From the NCBI GenBank assembly GCA_029246995.1, contig JAQWMB010000017.1, forward strand, positions 1 through 44,354: a DNA stretch of 44,354 nt, given 5' to 3'. The stretch is from Dehalococcoidia bacterium. Lineage in GTDB: Bacteria > Chloroflexota > Dehalococcoidia > UBA2979. Shown piece by piece: positions 2,909 to 30,571 of the stretch. Numbering within the stretch: the stretch's first letter is position 1; each line of letters starts with the position of its first letter. Both the position numbers and the translations under genes were made by a program. The notes below the pieces were generated by a model that was given only the letters and a program-made list of their open reading frames with translations, was not told where the DNA came from and made no database searches.

Positions 2909-3664
2909 TTGTTAACAAAAAGAATTATTCCATGCTTTGATGTTAAAGATGGCCGAGTTGTTAAGGGTATTTCATTTAAAAATTTAGTAGATGCTGGTGA
3001 TCCTGTTGAACTTGCATCTTATTATTGTAAAGAAGGCGCAGATGAGATTGTTTTTTTGGATATTACTGCTTCAACTGAAGAAAGAGATAGTGCATATAGC
3101 TTGATATCGACAACTGCAGACCATATCAATATTCCTTTGACTGTTGGTGGTGGTGTTAGAAAAGAAAAAGATATATATATGATGTTAAGATCTGGTGCAG
3201 ATAAAGTTTCAATGAACACGGCAGCCATTCAAAATCCAGATCTAATTTCAGTCAGTGCTAAACGTTTTGGTTCCCAGTGTACTGTCGTAGCTATTGATGC
3301 TAAGCGCATAAATGATGATTGGGAGATTTTTTCACATGGGGGCAGTAATGCTACTGGTAAAAAAGTTACTGAGTGGGCTAAAGAAAGTGTCGAAAGAGGA
3401 GCTGGGGAATTGCTAGTAACTTCTATGGATGCAGATGGCCAACAAAATGGTTATGATATTGCTTTACTTTCAGAAATAAAAAAAATTGTTAAAGTGCCGG
3501 TTATTGCATCGGGTGGTGGAGGTAAGCCAGAACATCTCTTGGATGCAATTCAAGCTGCTGATGTTGATGCTTTATTGCTCGCTTCAATATTACATTTTGG
3601 TAGCTATAGCATTCATGAAATTAAAAATTATTTAATTAATAATGATGTAGAAATTAGAGTCTAG
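2909..3664 (+). CDS. hisF: Imidazole glycerol phosphate synthase, cyclase subunit HisF
   Basis: Uses ammonia from HisH to make imidazole glycerol phosphate and AICAR. The (beta-alpha)8 barrel has 251 residues. Asp11 (IIPCFDVKDGRVVKG) and Asp130 (VVAIDAKR) are the catalytic pair, with phosphate-site motifs LTVGGGVR and VIASGGGG. The start is a TTG at 2909 preceded by AAGGA; no in-frame ATG would give a complete first strand. Nine bases separate it from hisA. HisH and HisF form one complex, matching their place in the same operon. Confidence 0.96.
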   Translation: MLTKRIIPCFDVKDGRVVKGISFKNLVDAGDPVELASYYCKEGADEIVFLDITASTEERDSAYSLISTTADHINIPLTVGGGVRKEKDIYMMLRSGADKVSMNTAAIQNPDLISVSAKRFGSQCTVVAIDAKRINDDWEIFSHGGSNATGKKVTEWAKESVERGAGELLVTSMDADGQQNGYDIALLSEIKKIVKVPVIASGGGGKPEHLLDAIQAADVDALLLASILHFGSYSIHEIKNYLINNDVEIRV

Positions 3665-3685
3665 GATTAACTGTTAGGAATAAAA

Positions 3686-4033
3686 ATGAAGATTGATTTA
3701 GAACAAATAAAGTTTAATGAAAATGGCTTGATTCCAGCTATTGTTCAAGATCATGAAACTAAAGAAGTTTTAATATTGGCTTATATGAACGAAGAAAGTA
3801 TTAAAATGACAATTAAATTAAGACAAGCTGTTTTTTGGTCACGAAGTCGATCAGAGATATGGCATAAAGGAGCCACATCAGGAGATTATTTAAATATAAA
3901 AAGTATAGCTTTAGACTGCGATCTAGACGCTATTCTTTTATTGGTTGAAATGGTGGGAGATGCTGCCTGTCATAATGGTACTTCTTCTTGTTTTATTGAT
4001 GAGAATAATAACGAACTCAGAGCAATCATTTAA
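3686..4033 (+). CDS. hisI: Phosphoribosyl-AMP cyclohydrolase HisI
   Basis: Opens the adenine ring of PR-AMP in the third step of histidine synthesis. The 115 residues match a stand-alone HisI without the HisE pyrophosphohydrolase domain. Family motifs seen are [18 protein letters not shown], the acidic metal-binding DCDLDA, and Cys residues in [13 protein letters not shown] that bind zinc. It is the last gene of the his run. Its final 8 bases overlap the convergent DUF1385 gene. Confidence 0.95.
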
Positions 4034-4940
4034 TTTTTTTTAGTTCAGAAAAATTATTTAATATGTAATGTTTTTCTATAGTCTTTAATTGATGTATATG
4101 AATTGCAGTAATTGCTACTTGTAAATGATGATCGTCTGGATAACGTAATGTCTTTTTTTGCATTATCATAAAAAAACTTAAAATCTTTATATTAATATTT
4201 TCTTTATATCGATCTATTATATTAATAACTTCATGGGTTATTCCGCTGCAAATGGGTAAAGCAGCTAATCTTAAAAAAATATTGTAAGATAAGGATGAAT
4301 CAATGAAATATATTAAGACAAAGAAAATTGCATAAATAATTGCGAGTATATAAAAATACGTACTGCCGCATCTAATATTTTTTTGAAAACCACGACGTAT
4401 TGCTGGTACTGTAAGTTGCTTATTTTTTGCATAGGCATTTATCGCCATATGTTCAGCTGCATGATACTTTAACAGATAGATAATGTTATTTAATTTGGAT
4501 ACTAATTCTAATAGCAGTAAATAGATCATTATTCTTGTGGCACCCTCGAATAATATAAATAGAAGTTTTTGATTTTCAAACCATGGTATAAATTGAATAA
4601 AAGTGGGGATGAAGATAAATATTAAGAAGAATGTAATGATAGCAGAAGAATCATAAATGAATTTGAATGATCTTTTTATTTTTGATGATAATTGTTTTTT
4701 TGTCGGATTAATATCTTGAATACCATGACTGTTTAATTGCGTAAACATGGTATTAATAAACTGAACAAAGCCACGAATTAAGAATATTTTTTTTAGTAAA
4801 TAGAGTCGATCTTTTGATTGGATTTTAACTTTAATGAGTAAGGAACCATCATTATTACGTAAAACAGTCACATGTTTTTTATTGTCATATATAGTTATGC
4901 TATTAAAATCTGCTTGACCACCTAATTGATTTTTATTCAT
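4026..4940 (-). CDS. DUF1385 (YqhQ-type) membrane protein
   Basis: 304 residues. The diagnostic part is [15 protein letters not shown] followed by [18 protein letters not shown], matching the conserved His/Glu and RCGT region of DUF1385. At least four hydrophobic segments lie near residues 95-115, 125-145, 198-215 and 220-235. The family is a probable metal-binding membrane protein of unknown role. Its position next to rpmE is common in several phyla and supports the call. The ATG at 4940 has AAGGAT upstream. It is 77 bases downstream of rpmE, so probably co-transcribed with the ribosomal genes. Confidence 0.85.
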
Positions 4941-5017
4941 ATTTATCCTTAAAGTTACTCGAATAAATAATTATGAAGGTTAAAGTGAATTTAAGGAACA
5001 TTGCGTAGGAACTGTAA

Positions 5018-5452
5018 TTACTCGGCCTTTTCTTCTTGATCCTCAGGTGTTACTTCAGCCTCAGGTGTTACTTCAGCCTCAGGTGTTACTTCAGCCTCAG
5101 GTGTTACCTCAGCCTCAGGTGTTACCTCAGCCTCAGGTGTTACCTCAGCCTCAGGTGATACTTCAGCCTCAGGTGATACTTCAGCCTCAGGTGTTACTTC
5201 AGCCTCAGGTGTTACTTCAGCCTCAGGTGATACTTCAGCCTCAGGTGTATCTTTTTTATCATATCTTTTTCTGAATCTCTCAACTCGCCCTGCTGTATCT
5301 ATTAATTTTTGTTCTCCAGTATAAAATGGATGACAATTAGAGCATATTTCTAATTTAACATCTTTAGTTGTAGAACCAGTTTCCCATTCTGATCCGCAAC
5401 CACTACAATTTACTTTTGTAATAAAATACTCTGGATGAATTTCTTTTTTCAT
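5018..5452 (-). CDS. rpmE: Ribosomal protein bL31 with a repetitive acidic C-terminal tail
   Basis: Residues 1-69 are a standard zinc-binding bL31: MKKEIHPEY, zinc ligands Cys16, Cys19, Cys37 and Cys40, then [20 protein letters not shown]. The family normally ends near residue 70. Here eleven copies of the hexapeptide PEAEV(S/T) follow (residues 70-135), then PEDQEEKAE. The tail is strongly acidic and probably disordered, exposed at the 50S surface near the 30S contact. It is encoded by near-identical 18-bp units and could vary in copy number. The start has GAGG upstream. Third gene in an L21-L27-L31 run. Confidence 0.95.
5048..5245 (-). repeat. Eleven tandem 18-bp repeats inside rpmE
   Basis: The plus strand repeats TCAGCCTCAGGTGTTACT-like units eleven times, with few single-base differences (T/A and C/T at fixed positions). 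The unit length is a multiple of three, so gain or loss of copies keeps the frame. The repeat encodes the PEAEV(S/T) tail of bL31. Confidence 0.95.
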
Positions 5453-5471
5453 TGATATCCTCTATATGCAA

Positions 5472-5726
5472 TTAAGCAATAATTGAAACTTTTTTCTTAC
5501 GATTTTTAGAGTAAATTGAAAACTTAACTTTACCTGGAATTTTTGCCCATAACGTATGATCTCTGCCTATTCCAACATTGTCACCAGCATGTATCCTTTG
5601 ACCACGTTGCCTTACGATAATAGAACCAGCAGTGACTACTTCACCATCAAATTTTTTAACTCCCAATCGTTTTGAGTTAGAGTCTCTTCCATTTCTGCTT
5701 GAACCACCTGATTTTTTATGAGCCAT
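5472..5726 (-). CDS. rpmA: Ribosomal protein bL27
   Basis: 84 residues, full length. It begins [19 protein letters not shown], the universally conserved N-terminus that reaches the peptidyl-transferase centre, followed by RLGVKKFDG and [13 protein letters not shown]. There is no cleavable Firmicutes-type N-terminal extension. AAGGA precedes the ATG. It lies 17 bases downstream of rplU and 19 upstream of rpmE, in the usual L21-L27 order. Confidence 0.97.
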
Positions 5727-5743: not shown

Positions 5744-6082
5744 CTATTTTTTGGAAGCAGTTTTCTTTGCTGATACAACAATTTTATTAATTGTAATTTG
5801 TGTTTTATCTTGCTTATGACCTCTTTTAGTACCACTACGTGTTTTATTTTTATACCTATAAGCAATAACCTTTTTATCTTTAATATGCGAGTCAACAGTT
5901 GCTTTTATTTGAGCACCTTTAATGCTTGGATCGCCCAGTGTAATTTTATTATCTGAATCGATAAGTAGAACATTTTCAAATATTATTTTTTCACCTGGGT
6001 TTTTATCGATTTTATCGATATTAATTGATGCGCCTTCTGATGCTACATATTGTCTTGTACCAATTTGTATGACTGCGTACAT
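5744..6082 (-). CDS. rplU: Ribosomal protein bL21
   Basis: 112 residues, close to the family's usual length of about 103. The N-terminus MYAVIQIGTRQYVASEGASI and the RNA-binding stretch KVIAYRYKNKTRSGTKRGHKQ are typical of bL21. The C-terminus ends in a basic tail. AAGG lies about 8 bases before the ATG. First gene of the minus-strand ribosomal run; 117 bases separate it from ftsH, enough for its own promoter. Confidence 0.96.
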   Translation of the reverse strand: MYAVIQIGTRQYVASEGASINIDKIDKNPGEKIIFENVLLIDSDNKITLGDPSIKGAQIKATVDSHIKDKKVIAYRYKNKTRSGTKRGHKQDKTQITINKIVVSAKKTASKK

Positions 6083-14456: not shown

Positions 14457-17334
14457 TTATGTTTTTCGCCTTTTTTTTAGTTAGTAAATTTTTTAGATGC
14501 TTTCCTGTGAGTGATTTTTTAGATTGCACGATTGATTCGGGGCTACCAGTTGCTACAATATAACCACCCTTATCACCTCCAACAGGCCCTAAGTCAATTA
14601 TCCAATCAGCATTTTTAATAACATCTAGGTGGTGTTCAATAATTAAAACTGTATTTCCTTGATTAACTAATTTTTGTAAAACAGCAAGTAGGGCATTGAT
14701 GTCTTCTAGAGCTAATCCAGTTGTTGGTTCATCGAGTAGATAAAGCGTATGTCCTTTTGTTCTTTTAGACAATTCAGTCGCAAGTTTAATCCTTTGTGCT
14801 TCTCCGCCAGATACTGTAGTTGCTGGTTGTCCAAGCCTGATATAACCCAGCCCAACATCATGTAATGTTTGCAATTTTCTCTTTGGTCCAGGATATACAT
14901 CGAAAAACTCTAATGCTTGATCGACAGTCATAGATAGCACATCTGCGATGTTTTTACCTTGAAGCATTATTTCTAATGCTTCATTATTATATCTTTTACC
15001 ATTACATACTTCGCATGTAATTGAAATATCAGGTAAAAATTGCATTTCAATTAATACATACCCATCACCAGAACATGGTTCGCATCTACCTCCCTTTACA
15101 TTAAAAGAAAATCTCCCTGGTTTGTATCCTCTCGCATTAGATTCAGGTAAGTTAGAAAACATTTCACGAATTGAAGTAAAGAGTGCCGTGTATGTTGCTG
15201 GATTTGATCTAGGAGTCCTGCCGATTGGCGATTGGTCGATGCGGATTACTTTATTTATATGCTCAGCACCTTTAATTGTTTTATGACGACCAACAAGATC
15301 GTTAGTTTTATAAAATTTTTGCCATAACGCTTTAGCTAATATTTCGTTAATCAGTGTTGATTTTCCAGAACCAGATACCCCAGTAACACATACTAAATTT
15401 CCAAGAGGAATGTCTATATCAATATTTTTTAAATTATTTTCTATTGCGCCTTTAATAGTTATTTTTTTCCCATTGCCCTTGCGTCTCTCTTCCGGAATAG
15501 GAATTTGGCGTTTACCTGATAAATATTGACCAGTTATTGAATTATTTTTCTTCTCAATTTGTGCAGGTGTTCCATATGCTACAATATTGCCACCTTGCTC
15601 ACCAGCCTTGGGGCCTAGATCAACAATATAATCTGCGGTACGTATCATCGCTTCGTCATGTTCGACTACGACAACAGTATTGCCTATGTCACGTAATTTT
15701 TTTAGAGTAGCTATTAATTTTTCGCTATCTTCTGAATGGAGCCCAATTGATGGTTCGTCGCAGACATAAAGTACTCCAGTCAATGCTGACCCAATTTGTG
15801 TTGCTAGTCGAATTCTTTGACTTTCACCACCAGCTAATGTGGAAGATTCCCTATTTAAAGTTAAATAATCTAAGCCAACATTTGATAAAAAAGATAGCCT
15901 GTGGTTAAGCTCAAGTAAAATTTGTTTAGCTATTTCTTGCTCAGTTGCTGAGAGTATATTAGTGTTTTTTAAATCACTGATCCACTTTAAGCTTTCTTCA
16001 ACTGACATTTTTACTATAGTTCCAATAGTATTATTATCAATTTTAATACTTAGTGCTTCTTTTTTTAGTCTTTCACCCTTACACAACTCACATTCTCTGG
16101 AGATCATGAATTTTTCAAGTAATTCTCTATCACCGTCAGCTTCTTTATACCGTTTTTGGAGATGATCAATTATGCCTTCCCAAATAAATGAGTAACTTCT
16201 TGTTCCGCCTCGTCTACGTTTGTAGTTAATCTCAACTCGCGTATTTGTTTCTCCATTCATTAAAATGTCTAAGTTGATTTTTGAGATTGTTTTTAGTGGC
16301 TGCTCGACTGTAAATCCGAATGTGTTCCCAACAGCTGTGATACGTTGTTGCATATATCCTCTTGACATTTTGATACCTCGAATACCTTTAATGCCTCCAT
16401 CTGCAATAGATATACTATCGTCTGGAATCAGCAGGGATGACTCTAATATCATTTGTTTTCCTAAGCCAGTGCATGCCGGGCATGCACCATGCGGGCTATT
16501 GAATGAAAAATTTCTAGGTTCAATTTGTGGAACTGAATATAATGATTTTAAACATTTACTACAAGCATAATTTTCACTATAAAAATATTCTTCATTACTT
16601 TCTAGTAAATAAATAATTGTGCCTTCACCTAGTTTCAATGCTTGTTCTACAGAATCTGAAATACGCAAACGCGCATCTTTAGTAAATTCTTTTTTATTAG
16701 GGATTTGTATCCGATCAACCACGATTTCTATGTCGTGCCATTTGTATCTATCTAGTTCAATATCTTCGTCGATTTCTCTTATAACATTATTGACTCTTAC
16801 TCTAATAAATCCTGATTTTTTTATATTTTCAAGTAATTGTTTGTGCTCTCCTCGTTTATGAGTAATTATTGGAGCTAATATACTACCTTTTGAATCTTGA
16901 TGTTTGCTAAAAATTTGATCTATGATTTGCTCTTTTGTTAATTTTTCAATGACAACGTTACAATTTGGACAGTATGCTTGACCTATTCGTGCAAATAATA
17001 ATCTAAGGTAATCATATATTTCTGTAACTGTTGCCACTGTTGATCGAGGATTCTTTGATACGCCTTTTTGATCAATGGATATAGCTGGAGACAATCCTTC
17101 TATACTTTCAACATCAGGCTTTTCCATTAATCCTAAAAATTGCCGAGCATATGCAGATAAGGATTCAACGTATCTTCTTTGACCTTCAGCATAAATTGTA
17201 TCAAAGGCTAAAGATGACTTACCAGAACCAGACAAACCAGTAATTACTGATAATTTATTGTGAGGAATAGAAATATCTATATTTTTTAAATTATGCTCTT
17301 TAGCACCCTTGATGACAATTTTTTTTTGAGACAT
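14449..17334 (-). CDS. uvrA: Excinuclease ABC subunit A
   Basis: Damage-recognition ATPase of nucleotide-excision repair. At 961 residues it is full length. The first Walker A is GLSGSGKSS at 33-41, followed by FDTIYAEGQRRYVESLSAYARQFLG. The zinc modules CSKC ... CPACTGLG and CEPCSGDGY ... CEVC are present, with ABC signatures LAGGESQR and VSGGEAQR, the second Walker A GVSGSGKST and Walker B CDEPSIGLH / LLDEPTTGL. No internal disruption. UvrB and UvrC are not in the window. Confidence 0.97.
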   Translation of the reverse strand: MSQKKIVIKGAKEHNLKNIDISIPHNKLSVITGLSGSGKSSLAFDTIYAEGQRRYVESLSAYARQFLGLMEKPDVESIEGLSPAISIDQKGVSKNPRSTVATVTEIYDYLRLLFARIGQAYCPNCNVVIEKLTKEQIIDQIFSKHQDSKGSILAPIITHKRGEHKQLLENIKKSGFIRVRVNNVIREIDEDIELDRYKWHDIEIVVDRIQIPNKKEFTKDARLRISDSVEQALKLGEGTIIYLLESNEEYFYSENYACSKCLKSLYSVPQIEPRNFSFNSPHGACPACTGLGKQMILESSLLIPDDSISIADGGIKGIRGIKMSRGYMQQRITAVGNTFGFTVEQPLKTISKINLDILMNGETNTRVEINYKRRRGGTRSYSFIWEGIIDHLQKRYKEADGDRELLEKFMISRECELCKGERLKKEALSIKIDNNTIGTIVKMSVEESLKWISDLKNTNILSATEQEIAKQILLELNHRLSFLSNVGLDYLTLNRESSTLAGGESQRIRLATQIGSALTGVLYVCDEPSIGLHSEDSEKLIATLKKLRDIGNTVVVVEHDEAMIRTADYIVDLGPKAGEQGGNIVAYGTPAQIEKKNNSITGQYLSGKRQIPIPEERRKGNGKKITIKGAIENNLKNIDIDIPLGNLVCVTGVSGSGKSTLINEILAKALWQKFYKTNDLVGRHKTIKGAEHINKVIRIDQSPIGRTPRSNPATYTALFTSIREMFSNLPESNARGYKPGRFSFNVKGGRCEPCSGDGYVLIEMQFLPDISITCEVCNGKRYNNEALEIMLQGKNIADVLSMTVDQALEFFDVYPGPKRKLQTLHDVGLGYIRLGQPATTVSGGEAQRIKLATELSKRTKGHTLYLLDEPTTGLALEDINALLAVLQKLVNQGNTVLIIEHHLDVIKNADWIIDLGPVGGDKGGYIVATGSPESIVQSKKSLTGKHLKNLLTKKKAKNINE

Positions 17335-23957: not shown

Positions 23958-24863
23958 ATGAGTTATATTTATTCACCTATTGCAGACAGAAAACCGCTAG
24001 TACTACCTGAGAATAATTCACTTGCATTAATTATTACTTTTAATTTAGAGCATTGGGATATGACAAAAGATACAGATGAACCATATTATGCTGGAGGTCC
24101 ACCTGTTATTCCTGATTCTTTGCCTGGACGTGTATTTGATGTTCCTAACTTTAGCTGGAGAGAGTATGGGCAACGTGTGGGAATTTGGCGGATGATTGAT
24201 GTTATGGATGAACTAGGTGCACCTGCTAGTTGCACAATGAATGCTAAAACAGGCCTTGTAAGGCGACAAATGATTGACGCTGCCAATGATCGTAATTGGG
24301 AATTAGTTGCTCATAATTACGAACAGGGAGATTTATTACCAAATTATTATAATGACATTGAAGCAGAGCGTAAATTAATTCAAGAAACTCTTAGGGTTTA
24401 CAATGATGTTGTGGGCAGGCCTGCAAAAGGCTGGCTTTCATCTTCATTACGTAGTACTGAGAACACTCCAGATATTCTTGCAGAAGAAGGCCTCTTGTTT
24501 TTAACTGATTACATGAATGACGATCAGCCTTACTTAATGCAAACTAATACAAATCCACTTGTTAGCATCCCATACTCTGTAGAGATGAATGATTTTACTT
24601 TATTTCATAGAAGAGGCATGACGACATCTCAAGTACTGGAGTCTTATATAGAGCAGTTTGATGTTTTACTTGCAGAAGGTGCGCAATCAGGCCGGATAAT
24701 GAATCTAGGCTTGCATCCACATATTTCCGGTCATCCATACAGAATCCGTGCACTCCGTGAATTTATTCGATATGTACAACAAGCTAAAGGAGTATGGTGG
24801 GCTACTAGAGAAGAAATTGCTGAATGGTATATTGATATAGCCCAAGATCATTTTGAACAATAA
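23958..24863 (+). CDS. Polysaccharide deacetylase-family protein, PuuE-like
   Basis: 301 residues of the NodB fold. The usual metal-site motif TFDDG is replaced by TFNLEHWD (about 29-36), as in PuuE-type allantoinases, which act on cyclic amides without the classic metal dyad. Other family features: ELVAHNYEQGD, GWLSSSLRST, and the C-terminal LHPHISGHPYRIRAL. It is soluble with no signal peptide, so a cytoplasmic amide hydrolase is more likely than a cell-wall deacetylase. It leads a five-gene operon with CoA-transferase, thiolase and MmgE/PrpD. The exact substrate is unknown. Confidence 0.82.
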   Translation: MSYIYSPIADRKPLVLPENNSLALIITFNLEHWDMTKDTDEPYYAGGPPVIPDSLPGRVFDVPNFSWREYGQRVGIWRMIDVMDELGAPASCTMNAKTGLVRRQMIDAANDRNWELVAHNYEQGDLLPNYYNDIEAERKLIQETLRVYNDVVGRPAKGWLSSSLRSTENTPDILAEEGLLFLTDYMNDDQPYLMQTNTNPLVSIPYSVEMNDFTLFHRRGMTTSQVLESYIEQFDVLLAEGAQSGRIMNLGLHPHISGHPYRIRALREFIRYVQQAKGVWWATREEIAEWYIDIAQDHFEQ

Positions 24864-24880
24864 TATGATTGTAATAAAAC

Positions 24881-25570
24881 ATGGCAGTTGAAATATTCTC
24901 AGATCCAGCACGTGCAGTTTCAATTGTACAAAACGATTCATCAATTATGTTTGGTGGATTCGTATCAGCTGGTTCACCAAGTAATTTAATTATGGCTTTA
25001 CATAATAGCGGACAAAGCAACTTAACTCTTATGGCAAATAATATTGGATTAGGTGACAAGCTTGACTTGCTTTGTGAAAGCAGGCAAGTTTCTAAAGTCA
25101 TTGCAACTTTTGCTATACGTGCTTCTGGTGGTAGGCAGAGTAACTTTGAGCAACAGTATCATAAAGGGGAAGTGGGACTAGAACTTGTACCTCAAGGTAC
25201 TTTTGCAGAGCGTATTCGTGCTGGCGGAGCGGGCATCGGTGGGTTTTTAACACCTACGGGAGTAGGGACAATGGTAGCAGAAGGTAAAGAGATAATGCAC
25301 GTAAAAGGAAAAGAATACCTCCTAGAGCTTCCACTGCGTGCTGATTATGCATTTATTAAAGCTTACAAGGCTGACACGCAAGGTAACTTAGTTTATCGAG
25401 GTGCTAGTAAAAATTTCAATGAATTGATGGCGACTGCAGCTGATTGCGTTATAGCAGAAGTTGAACAGATTGTTGAAGTAGGTTCATTACGACCATCACA
25501 AATTCATACCCCAGGTATTTTTGTTGATAGAGTTGTTCAATGTGACCCAGTTGAAATAAGGTGGGAATAA
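24881..25570 (+). CDS. 3-oxoacid CoA-transferase, subunit A
   Basis: 229 residues of class I CoA-transferase alpha subunit. It has the N-terminal MFGGFVSAGSPSNLI glycine loop, NNIGLGDKL, and the conserved GGAGIGGFLTPTGVGT stretch with LELPLRADYAFIKA. It pairs with the B subunit, whose start overlaps this stop codon (TAATG). Probably transfers CoA from succinyl-CoA or acetyl-CoA to a 3-oxoacid such as 3-oxoadipate or acetoacetate; the adjacent thiolase supports that. The acid is not determined by sequence. Confidence 0.9.
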   Translation: MAVEIFSDPARAVSIVQNDSSIMFGGFVSAGSPSNLIMALHNSGQSNLTLMANNIGLGDKLDLLCESRQVSKVIATFAIRASGGRQSNFEQQYHKGEVGLELVPQGTFAERIRAGGAGIGGFLTPTGVGTMVAEGKEIMHVKGKEYLLELPLRADYAFIKAYKADTQGNLVYRGASKNFNELMATAADCVIAEVEQIVEVGSLRPSQIHTPGIFVDRVVQCDPVEIRWE

Positions 25571-26226
25571 TGGCAGATGGACTTTCAAGAGAATTAATTG
25601 CCTTACGTGCTTCGAGAGAATTAAGTGACGGCATGATTGTTAATTTAGGTATTGGATTGCCTACGTTAGTGTCTAATTTTATTGATGGTCTTGATATAAC
25701 ACTACAATCAGAAAATGGCATTTTAGGTTATGGCAATATCCTAGAAGATGATTTCGAACCTGATTTTATTAATGCTGGCGGACAACCTGTTGAAATATTG
25801 CCAGGTGCTTCATTTTTTAATAGTGCTGAATCTTTTGGAATGATACGAGGAGGGCATATTGATGTTGCAATTCTAGGAGGATTGCAGGTATCATCAATTG
25901 GTGATTTAGCTAATTGGTATGTTCCAGAGCGAGGAGGAGGTAGTATTGGAGGCGCAATGGATTTAGCAGTAGGTGCTAAAAAATTAATTATTACAATGGC
26001 GCATATTACAAAAGATGGTGCTCCAAGAATTATGAATGAATGTTCTTATCCACTGACAGCAGAAAAATGTGTAGACTTAATAGTGACTGATCTTGCAGTT
26101 ATTCAGTGTCAAGACCAGCAGTTAACTTTAGTGGAAACAGCGCCAGGCATTTCAGTCGATGAAATTATTAATCTAACTGCTGCAGAATTAATTATTGATA
26201 GCAATGTTAAAGAAATGAGTTTATAA
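25570..26226 (+). CDS. 3-oxoacid CoA-transferase, subunit B
   Basis: 218 residues carrying the catalytic Glu48 in LQSENGILGYG, which forms the glutamyl-CoA intermediate. Also present are NLGIGLPTLVSNF, FFNSAESFGMIRGGHIDVAILGG (in part) and PGAKKL-like VGAKKLIITM. A GTG at 25561 is in frame, but I choose the ATG at 25570: AGGTGG sits 5 bases upstream and the ATG overlaps the subunit A stop, the usual coupling of this subunit pair. Two bases separate it from the thiolase. Confidence 0.92.
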   Translation: MADGLSRELIALRASRELSDGMIVNLGIGLPTLVSNFIDGLDITLQSENGILGYGNILEDDFEPDFINAGGQPVEILPGASFFNSAESFGMIRGGHIDVAILGGLQVSSIGDLANWYVPERGGGSIGGAMDLAVGAKKLIITMAHITKDGAPRIMNECSYPLTAEKCVDLIVTDLAVIQCQDQQLTLVETAPGISVDEIINLTAAELIIDSNVKEMSL

Positions 26227-26228
26227 CT

Positions 26229-27419
26229 ATGAGTGATGAACGACAACAGCCAGTTTTATTAGAAAGTGTTCGAACACCAATTGGAACATTTGGTGGTTCA
26301 TTAAGTACCGTTCCTGCAGCTGATTTAGCTGCTCTTGTTTTACGTGAAGCAGCACATCGTTCAAAGATTGAGATGGATAGTATTGATCAGGTTATCTTAG
26401 GGTGCGTTGGTCAAGTAGCAGAAGATGGGTATATTGCTAGACATGCAGCTATTAAAGCGGGAGCTAATATCAATTCTACTGCATATGCTGTCAACAGAAT
26501 ATGTGGTTCAGGCTTGGAAGCAATTAATACTGCAGCACGATGGATTGAGCTTGGTGAAGCACAGTATATTTTGGCTGGTGGTGTTGAAAATATGAGCCTC
26601 ATGCCTTACTACATTAGAAAAGGGCGATATGGATATAAGTATGGTGATGGCGCACTCGAAGACGGTACATTAGATTTATTAACAGACCCATTTGAAGGGT
26701 ATCCAATGGGAATAACTGCTGAAAATGTGGTTGATAGGTATAATATTTCTCGAGAACAACAAGATGAATTTGCTTTTTACTCACATGAAAGAGCACTTAG
26801 TGCACAAAAAAATCATTATTTTGATTCACAAATTGTTCAGGTTGATGTTGGAGGTAGAGATAATAAAATTTTTACAACTGATGAACATGTACGAGAAACA
26901 AGCATTGAAAAATTAAATCAATTACGACCGGCATTTAAGTCTGATGGCTCTGTAACTGCTGGAAATGCATCAGGAATTAATGATGGGGCAGCAGCAGTTG
27001 TCGTCACAACAGAGCAGAATGCAATTTCGCTACACGCAGAGACATATTTTAAATTAACTAGTAGGGCAGTTTGCGGTGTCGATCACTCAGTTATGGGGAC
27101 AGGACCTATTCCTGCTGTGCGGCAGGTTTTAAGTCAAGCTGGACTTACAATAGATGACATTGATGTCATAGAATTAAATGAAGCTTTTGCTGCAATAGCA
27201 TTAGCATGTGCATCCGATTTAAAAATTGATCTAAAAAAAATGAATCCAAATGGTGGAGCAATTGCGTTAGGTCATCCTATAGGGGCGACAGGTGTTATTT
27301 TAACTACAAAGATGATGCATGAACTGAATCGAATTAAAGGTAGGTTTGGTTTAGTTTCTTTATGTATTGGTGGAGGTCAAGGGATCGCTACTATTTTTGA
27401 ACGCATATCTAAGGAGTAA
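26229..27419 (+). CDS. Thiolase (acetyl-CoA C-acyltransferase)
   Basis: 396 residues of the degradative thiolase family. Nucleophile Cys92 in VNRICGSGLEAI, His349 in GGAIALGHPIGATG, and the second active Cys379 in SLCIGGGQGIA are all present, with the NEAFAA motif. With the upstream CoA-transferase it can split a 3-oxoacyl-CoA into acetyl-CoA and a shorter acyl-CoA, as in acetoacetate or beta-ketoadipate routes. Gaps are 2 bases on both sides, so it is firmly in the operon. The chain length used is unknown. Confidence 0.93.
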   Translation: MSDERQQPVLLESVRTPIGTFGGSLSTVPAADLAALVLREAAHRSKIEMDSIDQVILGCVGQVAEDGYIARHAAIKAGANINSTAYAVNRICGSGLEAINTAARWIELGEAQYILAGGVENMSLMPYYIRKGRYGYKYGDGALEDGTLDLLTDPFEGYPMGITAENVVDRYNISREQQDEFAFYSHERALSAQKNHYFDSQIVQVDVGGRDNKIFTTDEHVRETSIEKLNQLRPAFKSDGSVTAGNASGINDGAAAVVVTTEQNAISLHAETYFKLTSRAVCGVDHSVMGTGPIPAVRQVLSQAGLTIDDIDVIELNEAFAAIALACASDLKIDLKKMNPNGGAIALGHPIGATGVILTTKMMHELNRIKGRFGLVSLCIGGGQGIATIFERISKE

Positions 27420-27421
27420 TT

Positions 27422-28822
27422 ATGACTATTAGTCAATCACTTGCAGGGTTTGTTTATCAAATTGAATTCGCTAAGCTACCGCTAGAAGTAGTGGATAAAG
27501 TAAAAGCACTTCTGCTTCACGGAGTATTTATTGGACTTTCGAGTTTCAGTGAAGATGATGCTGTCTTAGCTGGAGAGTTATCTATAGCGATGGGTGAAAC
27601 AAATGTAGGGAATGCTCATATCTTAGCAAATGGTGCTACAACTAATCGATTGAGTGCTGCCTATGCAAATTCTGTGCTCATTCATTTACGCGGGCAAGAT
27701 GATTCATATCGTATGTTAACGCACCCTGGTTGTTGTATTTTACCAGCACTTTTTGCAGAATCTGAAAATCGTTCTATTTCAGGCATACGTTTTATTGAAG
27801 CACTTGTGGGGTCTTATGAAGTACACTGTCGTTTAAGTAAAGATACTGTTCCTTCAGCGCAGAATCAAGGATTTCGTTCCTCAGCTCTCTTTGGTATTTT
27901 TGGACCTGCTGTTGGTAGCGCTATGATTCACAGCTTAAATGACAGTCAAATTGCTAATACATTAGCGCTAGCAGTAAGCTTTGCTTCTGGTAATTTACAA
28001 ACTAGCCACGAAGGCACTAAAGAGATGACTTTTCAAGAAGCAATTGCCACGCAAAATGGCATGATGGCAGCACGCATTGCTCAACTGGATGTTAATGGAG
28101 CAACAGAATGTTTTGAAGGTCCAGCAGGATTTTTTCGAATATTTGCTGGAATTGAAAATAATACATTAAATGGTAGTTTTACTGACGCAAATTCTTTTCA
28201 AAATAATGATGTTATTAATGCACTTGGTAATGAATGGCAATTATATGATGTAACAATGAAAATATATTCTGGAGCAGGATTTGTGCAGCCTGTTATTGAG
28301 GGATGCGCACAACTTGCAAAAGATTACGATATTTCACCAGACTCAATTAAGGCCATCAATATTCAAATGAATGAATGGGAAACGGTTTATCCTTCACCTA
28401 AATTCCCAAGACCTGACTGGGGTGGTACTGATGAATGGAAAAATGCTCATTTTGCTGCATCTGCTATCGTCAATAAAGGATATGCTTCAACGGGCAGACG
28501 CCTGTCCTATGGTGGAAGGTCTGCTTTTGAAGAACCAGCTGATGTTCAGAGATTAACAAAACTCGTACGTGTTACTAAAGCCAATAGACCACAGTATGGA
28601 CCGATGATTGAAATTGTTCTTAACGATGATACCAAGCATTTCGTGGAGATGACTGGTGATGAATTTAAATGGGATTTTCAGACTGAAAAAAATAGGATTC
28701 AATCTGTTTATTCAGCGTTACCATTTGATTCAAACAATGCTGATCTAATTATTGATATGATTGAAAATTTAGAAAAGCTTGACGACATAGATAATTTAAT
28801 ATCACTTTTAATTCGTCGTTAA
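27422..28822 (+). CDS. MmgE/PrpD family protein
   Basis: 466 residues of the 2-methylcitrate dehydratase-like family. Seen are the helical N-terminal domain with HILANGATTNRLSAAYANS, then RSSALFGIFGPAVGSA, the FEGPAGFF segment, and MKIYSGAGFVQPVIEGC, corresponding to the MK.YP.C..... region of PrpD. The family includes 2-methylcitrate dehydratase and cis-aconitate decarboxylase; subfamily function cannot be fixed here. AAGGAG lies within the end of the thiolase gene. Its stop touches the convergent CaiB/BaiF stop with no base between. Confidence 0.82.
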   Translation: MTISQSLAGFVYQIEFAKLPLEVVDKVKALLLHGVFIGLSSFSEDDAVLAGELSIAMGETNVGNAHILANGATTNRLSAAYANSVLIHLRGQDDSYRMLTHPGCCILPALFAESENRSISGIRFIEALVGSYEVHCRLSKDTVPSAQNQGFRSSALFGIFGPAVGSAMIHSLNDSQIANTLALAVSFASGNLQTSHEGTKEMTFQEAIATQNGMMAARIAQLDVNGATECFEGPAGFFRIFAGIENNTLNGSFTDANSFQNNDVINALGNEWQLYDVTMKIYSGAGFVQPVIEGCAQLAKDYDISPDSIKAINIQMNEWETVYPSPKFPRPDWGGTDEWKNAHFAASAIVNKGYASTGRRLSYGGRSAFEEPADVQRLTKLVRVTKANRPQYGPMIEIVLNDDTKHFVEMTGDEFKWDFQTEKNRIQSVYSALPFDSNNADLIIDMIENLEKLDDIDNLISLLIRR

Positions 28823-30019
28823 TTAAGCAATAACGCCATCTTCTTTCATTTGATTAATTTCATCCCATGAGTAGCCTGCTTGCTCAAGATATAGTTCCGT
28901 GAAATTTCCTAATTCTGGCGGAGGTCCTGCGAGCTCAGTTGGTTTGCCACCAAATTGAATTGGACATCCAACAGTTGTAATTTCACCATAAAATGGATGA
29001 TCAAGCGTGGTAATATATCCATTATCTTTTGCATGATCGTCATTTAATATGTCATCGTAATCTTGTACGCGAGCATAAATAATATCCTGCTCATCAAAGA
29101 TATTACTAATGTCTTTATATGCATATTTTGCAAATTCAATTTCTAGTTGTGCGTTAATTTCATCTAATCCTGCTCGTCTTGTTTCATCATCAGGGAATTT
29201 ATCTGAGACCTCTGGGATACCAAGGGCATGGCATAGTCGCTTAAATCTGAACATATCTACTGATCCAATGACAAAATAGTCATCTTGACATTCAAAGACT
29301 CGCCAAATACCATTTTTACTCGCTACAGGGTGTCCGGTTCCACCTCGACCACTTTTAATACCTGTCATTGCATAAGTTGTTAATTCCCATGTTTGTAAAG
29401 CAAGTTGACCTGCATATAGTGATACATCTACTTGTTCGCCTTCACCTGTTTTTTCTTTTTTTACTAATGCTGCTAAAATTCCTGAGCACAATAATATCGC
29501 TCCTGTTTGATCTGCTATTGATGCAGCAGCTGGAGTAGGTGGATGGCCTTCAAATCCAGTCTTGCCCATAATGCCTCCCATTGCTTGCCCCATAATATCC
29601 ACGCCTGGTTTGCCTGCATATTTGCCTAGAGGGCCAAAACCTGTTGCATTTGCATATACGATGCTTGGATTAATCCTTTTTATAGATGCATAATCAAGGT
29701 CAAATTTATCCATGACGCCAGATCGAAAGTTATTTACTACTACATCAACTGTTTTAACTAATCTATGAATGATTTCTTTGCCACCAGGTTTTTTTAAATC
29801 AATCACAACACTACGTTTGCCTCTATTATGAGCAACAAAATAACCTAGAGGATATGCGCCAGGTTCACCTGGAGGAAAAATATGCCTACCACGTTCACCG
29901 CCAGGTGCTTCTATTTTAATAATCTCAGCACCCATGTCTGCTAATAACGTAGTACCGTATGGACCTTGTTGTGCCCAGGTAAAATCTAGAACCCTTACAC
30001 CTTCTAATGGTTTTGACAT
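28823..30019 (-). CDS. CaiB/BaiF family CoA-transferase with an attenuator-like leader
   Basis: 398 residues of class III CoA-transferase. Seen: GVRVLDFTWAQQGPYGT, MGAEIIKIEAPGGERGR, NRGKRSVVIDLK, VVNNFRSGVMDKFDLDY and catalytic Asp170 in AASIADQTGAIL. It shares the fold with the 17440 gene but is clearly different in sequence. The start is the ATG at 30019 with AAGGAG upstream; a second ATG four bases before is out of frame. The 5' region holds a promoter, an upstream ORF and two hairpins, so expression is probably controlled after initiation. The substrate is unknown. Confidence 0.88.
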   Translation of the reverse strand: MSKPLEGVRVLDFTWAQQGPYGTTLLADMGAEIIKIEAPGGERGRHIFPPGEPGAYPLGYFVAHNRGKRSVVIDLKKPGGKEIIHRLVKTVDVVVNNFRSGVMDKFDLDYASIKRINPSIVYANATGFGPLGKYAGKPGVDIMGQAMGGIMGKTGFEGHPPTPAAASIADQTGAILLCSGILAALVKKEKTGEGEQVDVSLYAGQLALQTWELTTYAMTGIKSGRGGTGHPVASKNGIWRVFECQDDYFVIGSVDMFRFKRLCHALGIPEVSDKFPDDETRRAGLDEINAQLEIEFAKYAYKDISNIFDEQDIIYARVQDYDDILNDDHAKDNGYITTLDHPFYGEITTVGCPIQFGGKPTELAGPPPELGNFTELYLEQAGYSWDEINQMKEDGVIA

Positions 30020-30051
30020 TCATTGCTCCTTAATTTTTGCTTGATAAAAGT

Positions 30052-30080
30052 CCTGGTCCAAGAAAAAATCTTGGACCAGG
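30052..30080 (-). promoter_or_regulatory. Leader hairpin B: perfect 11-bp stem
   Basis: CCTGGTCCAAG at 30052-30062 and its complement at 30070-30080 enclose the 7-base loop. On the transcript it ends 32 bases before the CaiB/BaiF start codon and is followed by ACUUUUAUC, a weak U-rich tract. It could act as an intrinsic terminator of an attenuator or as a stabilising hairpin. It is the strongest stem in the leader. Confidence 0.6.
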
Positions 30081-30097
30081 GTAACAAATATGTTAAA

Positions 30098-30135
30098 GCC
30101 TCTATCAAAGATTATTTATAAACCTAGATAGAGGC
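30098..30135 (-). promoter_or_regulatory. Leader hairpin A: 9-bp stem overlapping the upstream ORF
   Basis: GCCTCTATC (plus 30098-30106) pairs with GATAGAGGC (30127-30135) around a 20-base loop. On the minus-strand transcript the 5' arm is part of codons 8-11 of the 13-codon upstream ORF. A ribosome held on those codons would open this hairpin, the geometry expected for translation-dependent control. Confidence 0.55.
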
Positions 30136-30157
30136 GACACATTACACTAGATAACAT
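30116..30157 (-). CDS. 13-codon upstream ORF (putative leader peptide MLSSVMCRLYLGL)
   Basis: The minus strand reads ATG at 30157 to TAA at 30116, encoding MLSSVMCRLYLGL. It is preceded by AAAGGGAGGTGATCC, which matches the complement of the 16S rRNA 3' end far better than any other start in the window, with 6 bases between GGAGG and the ATG. The ORF ends 96 bases before the CaiB/BaiF gene and its codons overlap hairpin A. Such a strong initiation site for a tiny ORF points to a regulatory leader peptide. I do not recognise the peptide; the Cys-Arg-Leu-Tyr run is a candidate sensing or stalling site. Confidence 0.65.
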   Translation of the reverse strand: MLSSVMCRLYLGL

Positions 30158-30196
30158 GGATCACCTCCCTTTGTTGAATAATTTTTTGATATTTCT

Positions 30197-30225
30197 ACAA
30201 TAGCAATACATAAGATTTTTTGCAA
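30197..30225 (-). promoter_or_regulatory. Probable promoter of the leader-CaiB/BaiF unit
   Basis: Read on the minus strand: TTGCAA (30225-30220), 17-base spacer, TATTGT (30202-30197). Transcription would begin near 30190, about 20 bases before the strong Shine-Dalgarno of the upstream ORF. Both hexamers are imperfect, but the spacing is ideal. Confidence 0.45.
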
Positions 30226-30265: not shown

Positions 30266-30571
30266 ATGACAAATCAATTAAAAATAATTCTTGGATTTGT
30301 TTTAACTGCGATTGGAACCTTGCTTGTTGCTAGGTTCTTGCTGAATTTTTTCTTTTCCAACAATACTATAAATACTAATGGAGGATTCATAAGCATGAAT
30401 CCGTTTCTAGATGAACAGCCAGAGTTTCAAGCCTGTCTTGCTGAGGAAATTAACGCAAAAAGACTTGCAGAACTTAAGGATAATCAAAAGCCTACAAATG
30501 ATGAATACGATGTTATTGATGATCCAAAGCGTGGTTATAAATTATATTTTATTGAATTAACTATTAAATGA
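30266..30571 (+). CDS. Small single-pass membrane protein of unknown function
   Basis: 101 residues. One hydrophobic segment at about 6-31 (ILGFVLTAIGTLLVARFLLNFFF) is followed by a polar, charged cytoplasmic or external part with no recognised domain. GAGGTAG lies upstream. Its last 4 bases overlap the start of the metallopeptidase gene (ATGA), so the two are translationally coupled and probably act together. I do not recognise it. Confidence 0.65.
   Translation: MTNQLKIILGFVLTAIGTLLVARFLLNFFFSNNTINTNGGFISMNPFLDEQPEFQACLAEEINAKRLAELKDNQKPTNDEYDVIDDPKRGYKLYFIELTIK

Follow-up and report, generated by a model that had tools for sequence, protein, structure and literature searches.

A 13-codon open reading frame (ORF) with an extended Shine-Dalgarno sequence lies upstream of a class III CoA-transferase gene (CaiB/BaiF) in a 44,354-nt stretch of DNA from a Dehalococcoidia bacterium (contig JAQWMB010000017.1; hereafter the window), and this raises the question of whether the short frame belongs to a leader that controls the gene and, if so, whether that control is of the classical attenuator kind. 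Judging from the sequences compared here, a translated cis-acting leader (an upstream ORF, or uORF) likely precedes the CaiB/BaiF gene, and the control that it exerts is likely attenuation-like, although not of the classical kind. The ordered series of elements given in a preliminary description, from promoter to CaiB/BaiF start codon, was found in full at its minus-strand positions (Table 1); the second hairpin has a perfect stem, as had been described, but its length is 12 bp rather than 11 bp.

Table 1. Elements of the leader region in the window, with their identity to the corresponding sequence in G001, a genome of the same genus.
Element	Position	Strand	Identity, window vs G001	Basis or remark
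Promoter-like element, TTGCAA + 17-nt spacer + TATTGT	30197..30225	-	79% (23/29)	sequence
-35-like TTGCAA	30225-30220	-		sequence
-10-like TATTGT, TGC immediately 5' (extended -10)	30202-30197	-		sequence
Stretch from promoter to Shine-Dalgarno			81%	
Extended Shine-Dalgarno of leader ORF, GGGAGGTGATCC	30158..30169	-	92% (11/12)	11-nt match to 16S 3' end complement
13-codon leader ORF, peptide MLSSVMCRLYLGL	30116..30157	-		G001 version is MLSSVICSLYRRL
Leader codons 1-5			100%	
Leader codons 6-8			67%	
Codons 9-10 (hairpin 1 arm) and hairpin 1 3' arm			100%	
Leader ORF stop TAA	30118-30116	-		
Hairpin 1	30098..30135	-		leader ORF stop codon in loop; predicted in all three sequences
Hairpin 1 5' arm, GCCTCTATC	30135-30127	-		inside leader ORF, codons 8-11
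Hairpin 1 loop			82%	
Hairpin 1 3' arm, GATAGAGGC	30106-30098	-		
Hairpin 1 U-rich tail, TTTAACATATTTGTTA	30082..30097	-	88% (14/16)	
Hairpin 2, 12-bp stem, 5-nt loop, weak U tail ACTTTTATC	30052..30080	-	53%	
Shine-Dalgarno AAGGAG of CaiB/BaiF gene	30026..30031	-		sequence
Class III CoA-transferase (CaiB/BaiF), 398 aa	28823..30019	-		PF02515; ATG at 30019; presumed leader target

The comparison set consists of three sequences, two of them close: the window, G001 (the sole other member of the genus among the genomes compared) and contig NZJM01000032.1 (L032). The last of these is filed under a Legionellales MAG, yet it shares the gene order of the Chloroflexi window, with closely similar genes, and because of this shared neighbourhood it is probably misbinned. 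The CaiB protein of the window is 90% identical to that of G001, with 42% of fourfold sites identical, and 94% identical to that of L032, with 69% of fourfold sites identical; upstream of the -35 element, the window and G001 are 44% identical. From the end of the -10 to the end of the hairpin 1 tail, the leader is identical to that of G001 at 101 of 116 columns (87%) and to that of L032 at about 99%, the L032 version being unchanged from the -10 through hairpin 1 and differing at one base in the tail. The leader, far more identical than either the fourfold sites or the upstream region, is thus subject to strong purifying selection. Conservation is strongest in the part made up of the Shine-Dalgarno sequence, the ORF and hairpin 1, and the alignment to relatives that had been suggested at the outset shows the Shine-Dalgarno sequence, the ORF and the stems to be kept in both G001 and L032.

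The promoter-like element falls under the scanner threshold (8 of 12), and its consensus score alone is not above chance; despite this low score it is conserved in G001 and L032. The leader Shine-Dalgarno sequence had been called the best in the window, and this holds: scored against the standard 16S 3' end, which may not be the host's own, the longest complement match in the window is GGAGGTGATCC (11 nt) at this site, and the runner-up is a 9-nt match at 14580 that has no ATG after it. No 16S gene was found in either assembly (the window genome and G001). The leader ATG lies five bases 3' of GGAGGT, and the pattern GGAGGTGAT-NN-ATG occurs in G001 at the leader only and in G000 at two sites, one of which is the leader.

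Is it the peptide or the RNA that selection maintains? The start, the 13-codon length, Cys-7, Leu-9, Tyr-10, Leu-13 and the position of the stop in the hairpin loop are all kept in G001. Codons 1–5 are the same at all 15 bases in the three sequences, and because this invariance extends to the wobble positions, part of the constraint may be on RNA structure and not on the peptide. Elsewhere in the ORF the changes are synonymous at two codon pairs (TGT/TGC for Cys, and TTA/TTG) and nonsynonymous at four positions (Met-6/Ile, Arg-8/Ser, Leu-11/Arg and Gly-12/Arg). The reading frame is kept and constraint at the nucleotide level is also apparent, while these codon comparisons speak weakly, for and against, on selection for the peptide itself. 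The Cys-Arg-Leu-Tyr run singled out in the preliminary description did not survive the comparison, as it reads CSLY in G001 and its Leu-Tyr doubles as a hairpin arm; with a single Cys, a single Tyr and scattered Leu, neither MLSSVMCRLYLGL nor MLSSVICSLYRRL contains a run of regulatory codons.

The same invariance of codons 1–5 would suit a structured RNA, in which the Shine-Dalgarno sequence, the start of the ORF and hairpin 1 would together bind a protein or a ligand, or act as a switch that sequesters the Shine-Dalgarno sequence, and in which the peptide is irrelevant. The sole change in the Shine-Dalgarno/start block sits in the loop of a possible stem of this kind, and the absence of any match at gathering score to an Rfam family, whether riboswitch, T-box or known leader (a permissive search gave chance-level matches only), leaves room for an undescribed element. 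The stem in question, AGGUGAU/GUUAUCU, is weak; it would sequester the leader Shine-Dalgarno sequence, has a high predicted probability in G001 only, and shows no variation inside the stem among the three sequences. We consider this reading unlikely, as a well-spaced Shine-Dalgarno–ATG pair and a 13-codon frame are kept; the synonymous TGT/TGC and TTA/TTG changes also count against it, although the residue changes at other codons leave that argument weak both ways.

The leader as a whole (30182-30040) folds with z = -5.9 relative to shuffles, and the segment containing hairpin 2 (30100-30040) with z = -6.7. Hairpin 1, with a stem of 9 perfect bp plus an inner stem, is predicted in the window, G001 and L032 (P 0.80–0.999); both of its arms are invariant in all three, so that covariation provides no test of it. 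The expectation that a conserved peptide would be accompanied by compensatory stem changes was borne out in part, by double changes in hairpin 2; hairpin 1 is invariant, as just noted, and Arg-8 is not conserved. Between the window and G001, 6 of the 12 pairs of hairpin 2 carry a substitution in each arm, yet every pair is intact and both stems are perfect; when as many changes were placed at random, all pairs survived in one of 200,000 trials. Because palindrome-correcting mutation can also rebuild the arms, these changes show that the stem is kept and do not speak to its function. The A/T-rich loop of hairpin 2 reads ATTTTTT in the window (30063-30069) and AAAAATT in L032 (near 5857-5863), which suggests that a hairpin-mediated event has inverted it; loop inversion is a typical hairpin event. 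Another perfect inverted repeat, of 16 bp with a 4-nt loop and without a U tail, lies at positions 1487-1522 of the window, in a stretch lacking a long ORF.

As a terminator, hairpin 2 is not unusual by its score alone (1 such site found versus 1.1 expected in 1.9 kb). Its stem is strong and its tails are weak (ACTTTTATC in the window, ATCTTATTT in G001); the U-rich tail of hairpin 1 is conserved and that of hairpin 2 is not, and neither hairpin has the U tail of a strong intrinsic terminator. Across the window, terminator-like sites occur at chance number, with one canonical-looking site at 33102-33077. The role of hairpin 2 is possibly that of a terminator, an RNA polymerase pause site or an mRNA-stabilising hairpin. 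That it is kept as structure and not as sequence is what would be expected of a stabiliser or a simple terminator, and its weak tail and its distance from the leader stop, too great for ribosome control, likewise fit a region in which nothing is sensed, be it a constitutive expression or stability module or a separate gene for a small RNA or micro-protein ended by hairpin 2. We think this quite unlikely, given that no second conserved promoter was seen between hairpin 2 and the CaiB gene and that conservation is strongest in the Shine-Dalgarno sequence, ORF and hairpin 1, none of which a plain stabiliser would need.

A short ORF with a strong Shine-Dalgarno sequence, two tandem hairpins and a conserved Cys codon are also the ingredients of a classical trp/his attenuator, in which stalling at the Cys (or Leu/Tyr) codons would choose between an antiterminator and hairpin 2 as the terminator. 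Such a mechanism is very unlikely here. Duplexes between the 3' arm of hairpin 1 and the 5' arm of hairpin 2 have energies of -5.9 to -9.4 kcal/mol, which 12–38% of shuffles match, and the antiterminator was rejected because in the three sequences these energies are no better than those of shuffles. Moreover, the sequence of hairpin 2 changes while its would-be partner, region 2, does not; a regulatory-codon run is lacking; and CaiB is not an amino-acid biosynthesis gene. By geometry, ribosomes at the Cys codon or at the stop would mask the same arm. Pairing between the 3' arm of hairpin 1 and the tail of hairpin 2 (GAUAGAGG with ACUUUUAUC) was dropped, being present in the window and L032 and absent from G001. 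Sequestration of the CaiB Shine-Dalgarno sequence was likewise rejected as a conserved feature, since AAGGAG is mostly free of pairing in the folds of the window and of L032; in G001 it is partly paired.

We tentatively favour a translation-dependent leader, and think it quite possible that ribosomes on the ORF block hairpin 1 and that translation of the ORF thereby promotes CaiB/BaiF expression. Transcription and translation of the leader, the termination step and the direction of control are what we infer for this model, which would run as follows. Transcription would begin near 30190, and the extended Shine-Dalgarno sequence would recruit a ribosome early; on codons from about 6 to the stop, this ribosome would cover the 5' arm of hairpin 1, which would thus be blocked, and RNA polymerase would continue into the CaiB gene. 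Were the ORF untranslated or slowly initiated, hairpin 1 and its U-rich tail would form and transcription would pause or terminate; alternatively, the untranslated leader RNA would be exposed to Rho, a version made possible by the presence of a Rho gene in both genomes. A ribosome usually covers about 12 nt downstream of the codon that it is translating (PMC4833913). Whether it stood at Cys-7 or at the stop, it would therefore mask the 5' arm, and hairpin 1 would register translation of the ORF as such and not the position of a stalled ribosome.

In E. coli, for a terminator to be repressed by a ribosome on the stop codon, the terminator stem must start within about 27 nt (PMC4824070). Hairpin 2 starts 35 nt past the leader stop, beyond the E. 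coli reach, and should therefore escape a terminating ribosome; in the favoured model it would be a secondary element (a weak terminator, a pause or a 5' stabiliser). Hairpin 1, overlapped by the ORF and followed by a conserved U-rich tail, is a putative terminator-like structure that the leader ribosome could reach. With both U tails weak and terminator-like sites at chance number, termination is the weak point of this model. Of what was first proposed, the translated cis leader is well supported, by conservation and by the double changes in hairpin 2; the likeness to the geometry of known leader-peptide attenuators is loose, as no antiterminator was found in the three sequences, the Cys-Arg-Leu-Tyr run is not conserved as such and hairpin 2 lies beyond the E. 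coli reach. The signal could possibly be the level of Cys-tRNA, a suggestion that comes from the one conserved Cys codon; nothing links the CaiB gene to cysteine, and we therefore place it no higher. More specifically, and in our view doubtfully, the leader might be a lineage-specific RNA in which a 13-codon ORF with a strong ribosome-binding site senses translation capacity or Cys-tRNA and switches a catabolic CoA-transferase through a ribosome-blocked hairpin, without an antiterminator.

By analogy, the nearest counterparts would be the antiterminator-less leaders pyrBI and tlrB. The pyrBI leader of E. coli encodes a longer peptide, has a strong terminator with a U run and serves pyrimidine biosynthesis via UTP-dependent pausing. 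The two are alike in that the leader ORF overlaps a hairpin whose folding a close ribosome prevents, or would prevent, making an antiterminator unnecessary, and unlike in that our leader has a 13-codon ORF and weak U tails (the pyrBI leader is discussed in PMC4824070). In the tlrB (yxjB) leader of B. subtilis, no overlapping antiterminator has been identified and ribosome position sets read-through (PMC6851288); that leader shares with ours a very short ORF and a hairpin without an identified overlapping antiterminator. It responds, however, to tylosin, which stalls ribosomes at an RYR motif, and has a further hairpin that hides the Shine-Dalgarno sequence of the target, whereas no conserved R/K-X-R/K motif and no consistent Shine-Dalgarno sequestration were seen here.

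Other leaders resemble this one in fewer respects. Those of the trp/his/ilv type, such as Corynebacterium ilvB-II (PMC10272879), also place a short ORF and hairpins before a metabolic gene, but our leader lacks both an antiterminator and a run of codons for a product amino acid. A conserved Cys codon in a short uORF is shared with the cysteine leader peptides of Actinobacteria (PMC1262725) and the cysS motif uORFC-8-2 (PMC8632094), in which tandem or clustered Cys codons precede cysteine genes, whereas here a single Cys codon precedes a CoA-transferase gene. The odc1 element (uORF-25-1) of alphaproteobacteria has a conserved 11-residue uORF and, as here, can have a PF02515 CoA-transferase downstream, among the first three genes (PMC8632094). 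It differs in structure and phylum from the Chloroflexi leader, having a pseudoknot, UUG starts 2 nt apart and its Shine-Dalgarno sequence in a stem, and its commonest associated gene is that for ornithine decarboxylase (PMC8632094). Set beside these systems, the leader is a new example of an ordinary kind.

A covariance model built on the Shine-Dalgarno sequence, the ORF and hairpin 1 recovered the leader in 2 of 44 genomes of the family and 2 of 393 of the class, both being the genus members, in a search whose stricter filters over >40 genomes can lose weak matches. The same model found one copy in the window genome, so that looking for the leader elsewhere in this genome, as had been advised, turned up no further copy. 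When the GTDB genome collection (about 85,000 species) was scanned with an exact pattern, only the G001 contig and L032 matched; viral contigs held no leader copy and no confirmed relative of the CaiB gene. In G014, about 90 nt separate the homologue (61% identical) from the long same-strand ORF that precedes it, which leaves little room for such a leader. As far as these genome sequences go, the leader appears to be restricted to one genus of marine-type Chloroflexi.

The presumed target is a clear member of PF02515 (E 1.2e-106); in NCBIfam no function reaches cut-off for it, the best matches being succinyl-CoA:mesaconate and formyl-CoA transferases. In the 1.19 Mb of the window genome, this protein has 26 matches. 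A plus-strand cluster (23958-28822), conserved in G001, converges on the CaiB gene; it encodes a 301-aa protein, a type I CoA-transferase pair, a thiolase and an MmgE/PrpD protein, and likely serves to degrade carboxylates. A 101-aa plus-strand ORF (30266-30571), divergent from the leader, joins the N-terminus of a subtilisin-like protein directly to its final residues. L032 retains the intact 712-aa version (3523-5661, minus strand); on this comparison, the subtilisin-like gene of the window genome carries a large in-frame deletion.

SAR202-type Chloroflexi, to which the window genome would belong, have many CaiB/BaiF genes (PMC5395668), thought to feed carboxylates into CoA-linked degradation. 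Our limited literature search turned up no account of control of this kind either in Chloroflexi or on CaiB/BaiF genes, nothing on CaiB/BaiF regulation in SAR202-type Chloroflexi, and no described leader peptide of the antiterminator-less type in Chloroflexi. A conserved translated leader on a CaiB/BaiF gene would be a concrete, testable regulatory element, and would add an antiterminator-less, attenuation-like case in the Chloroflexi.
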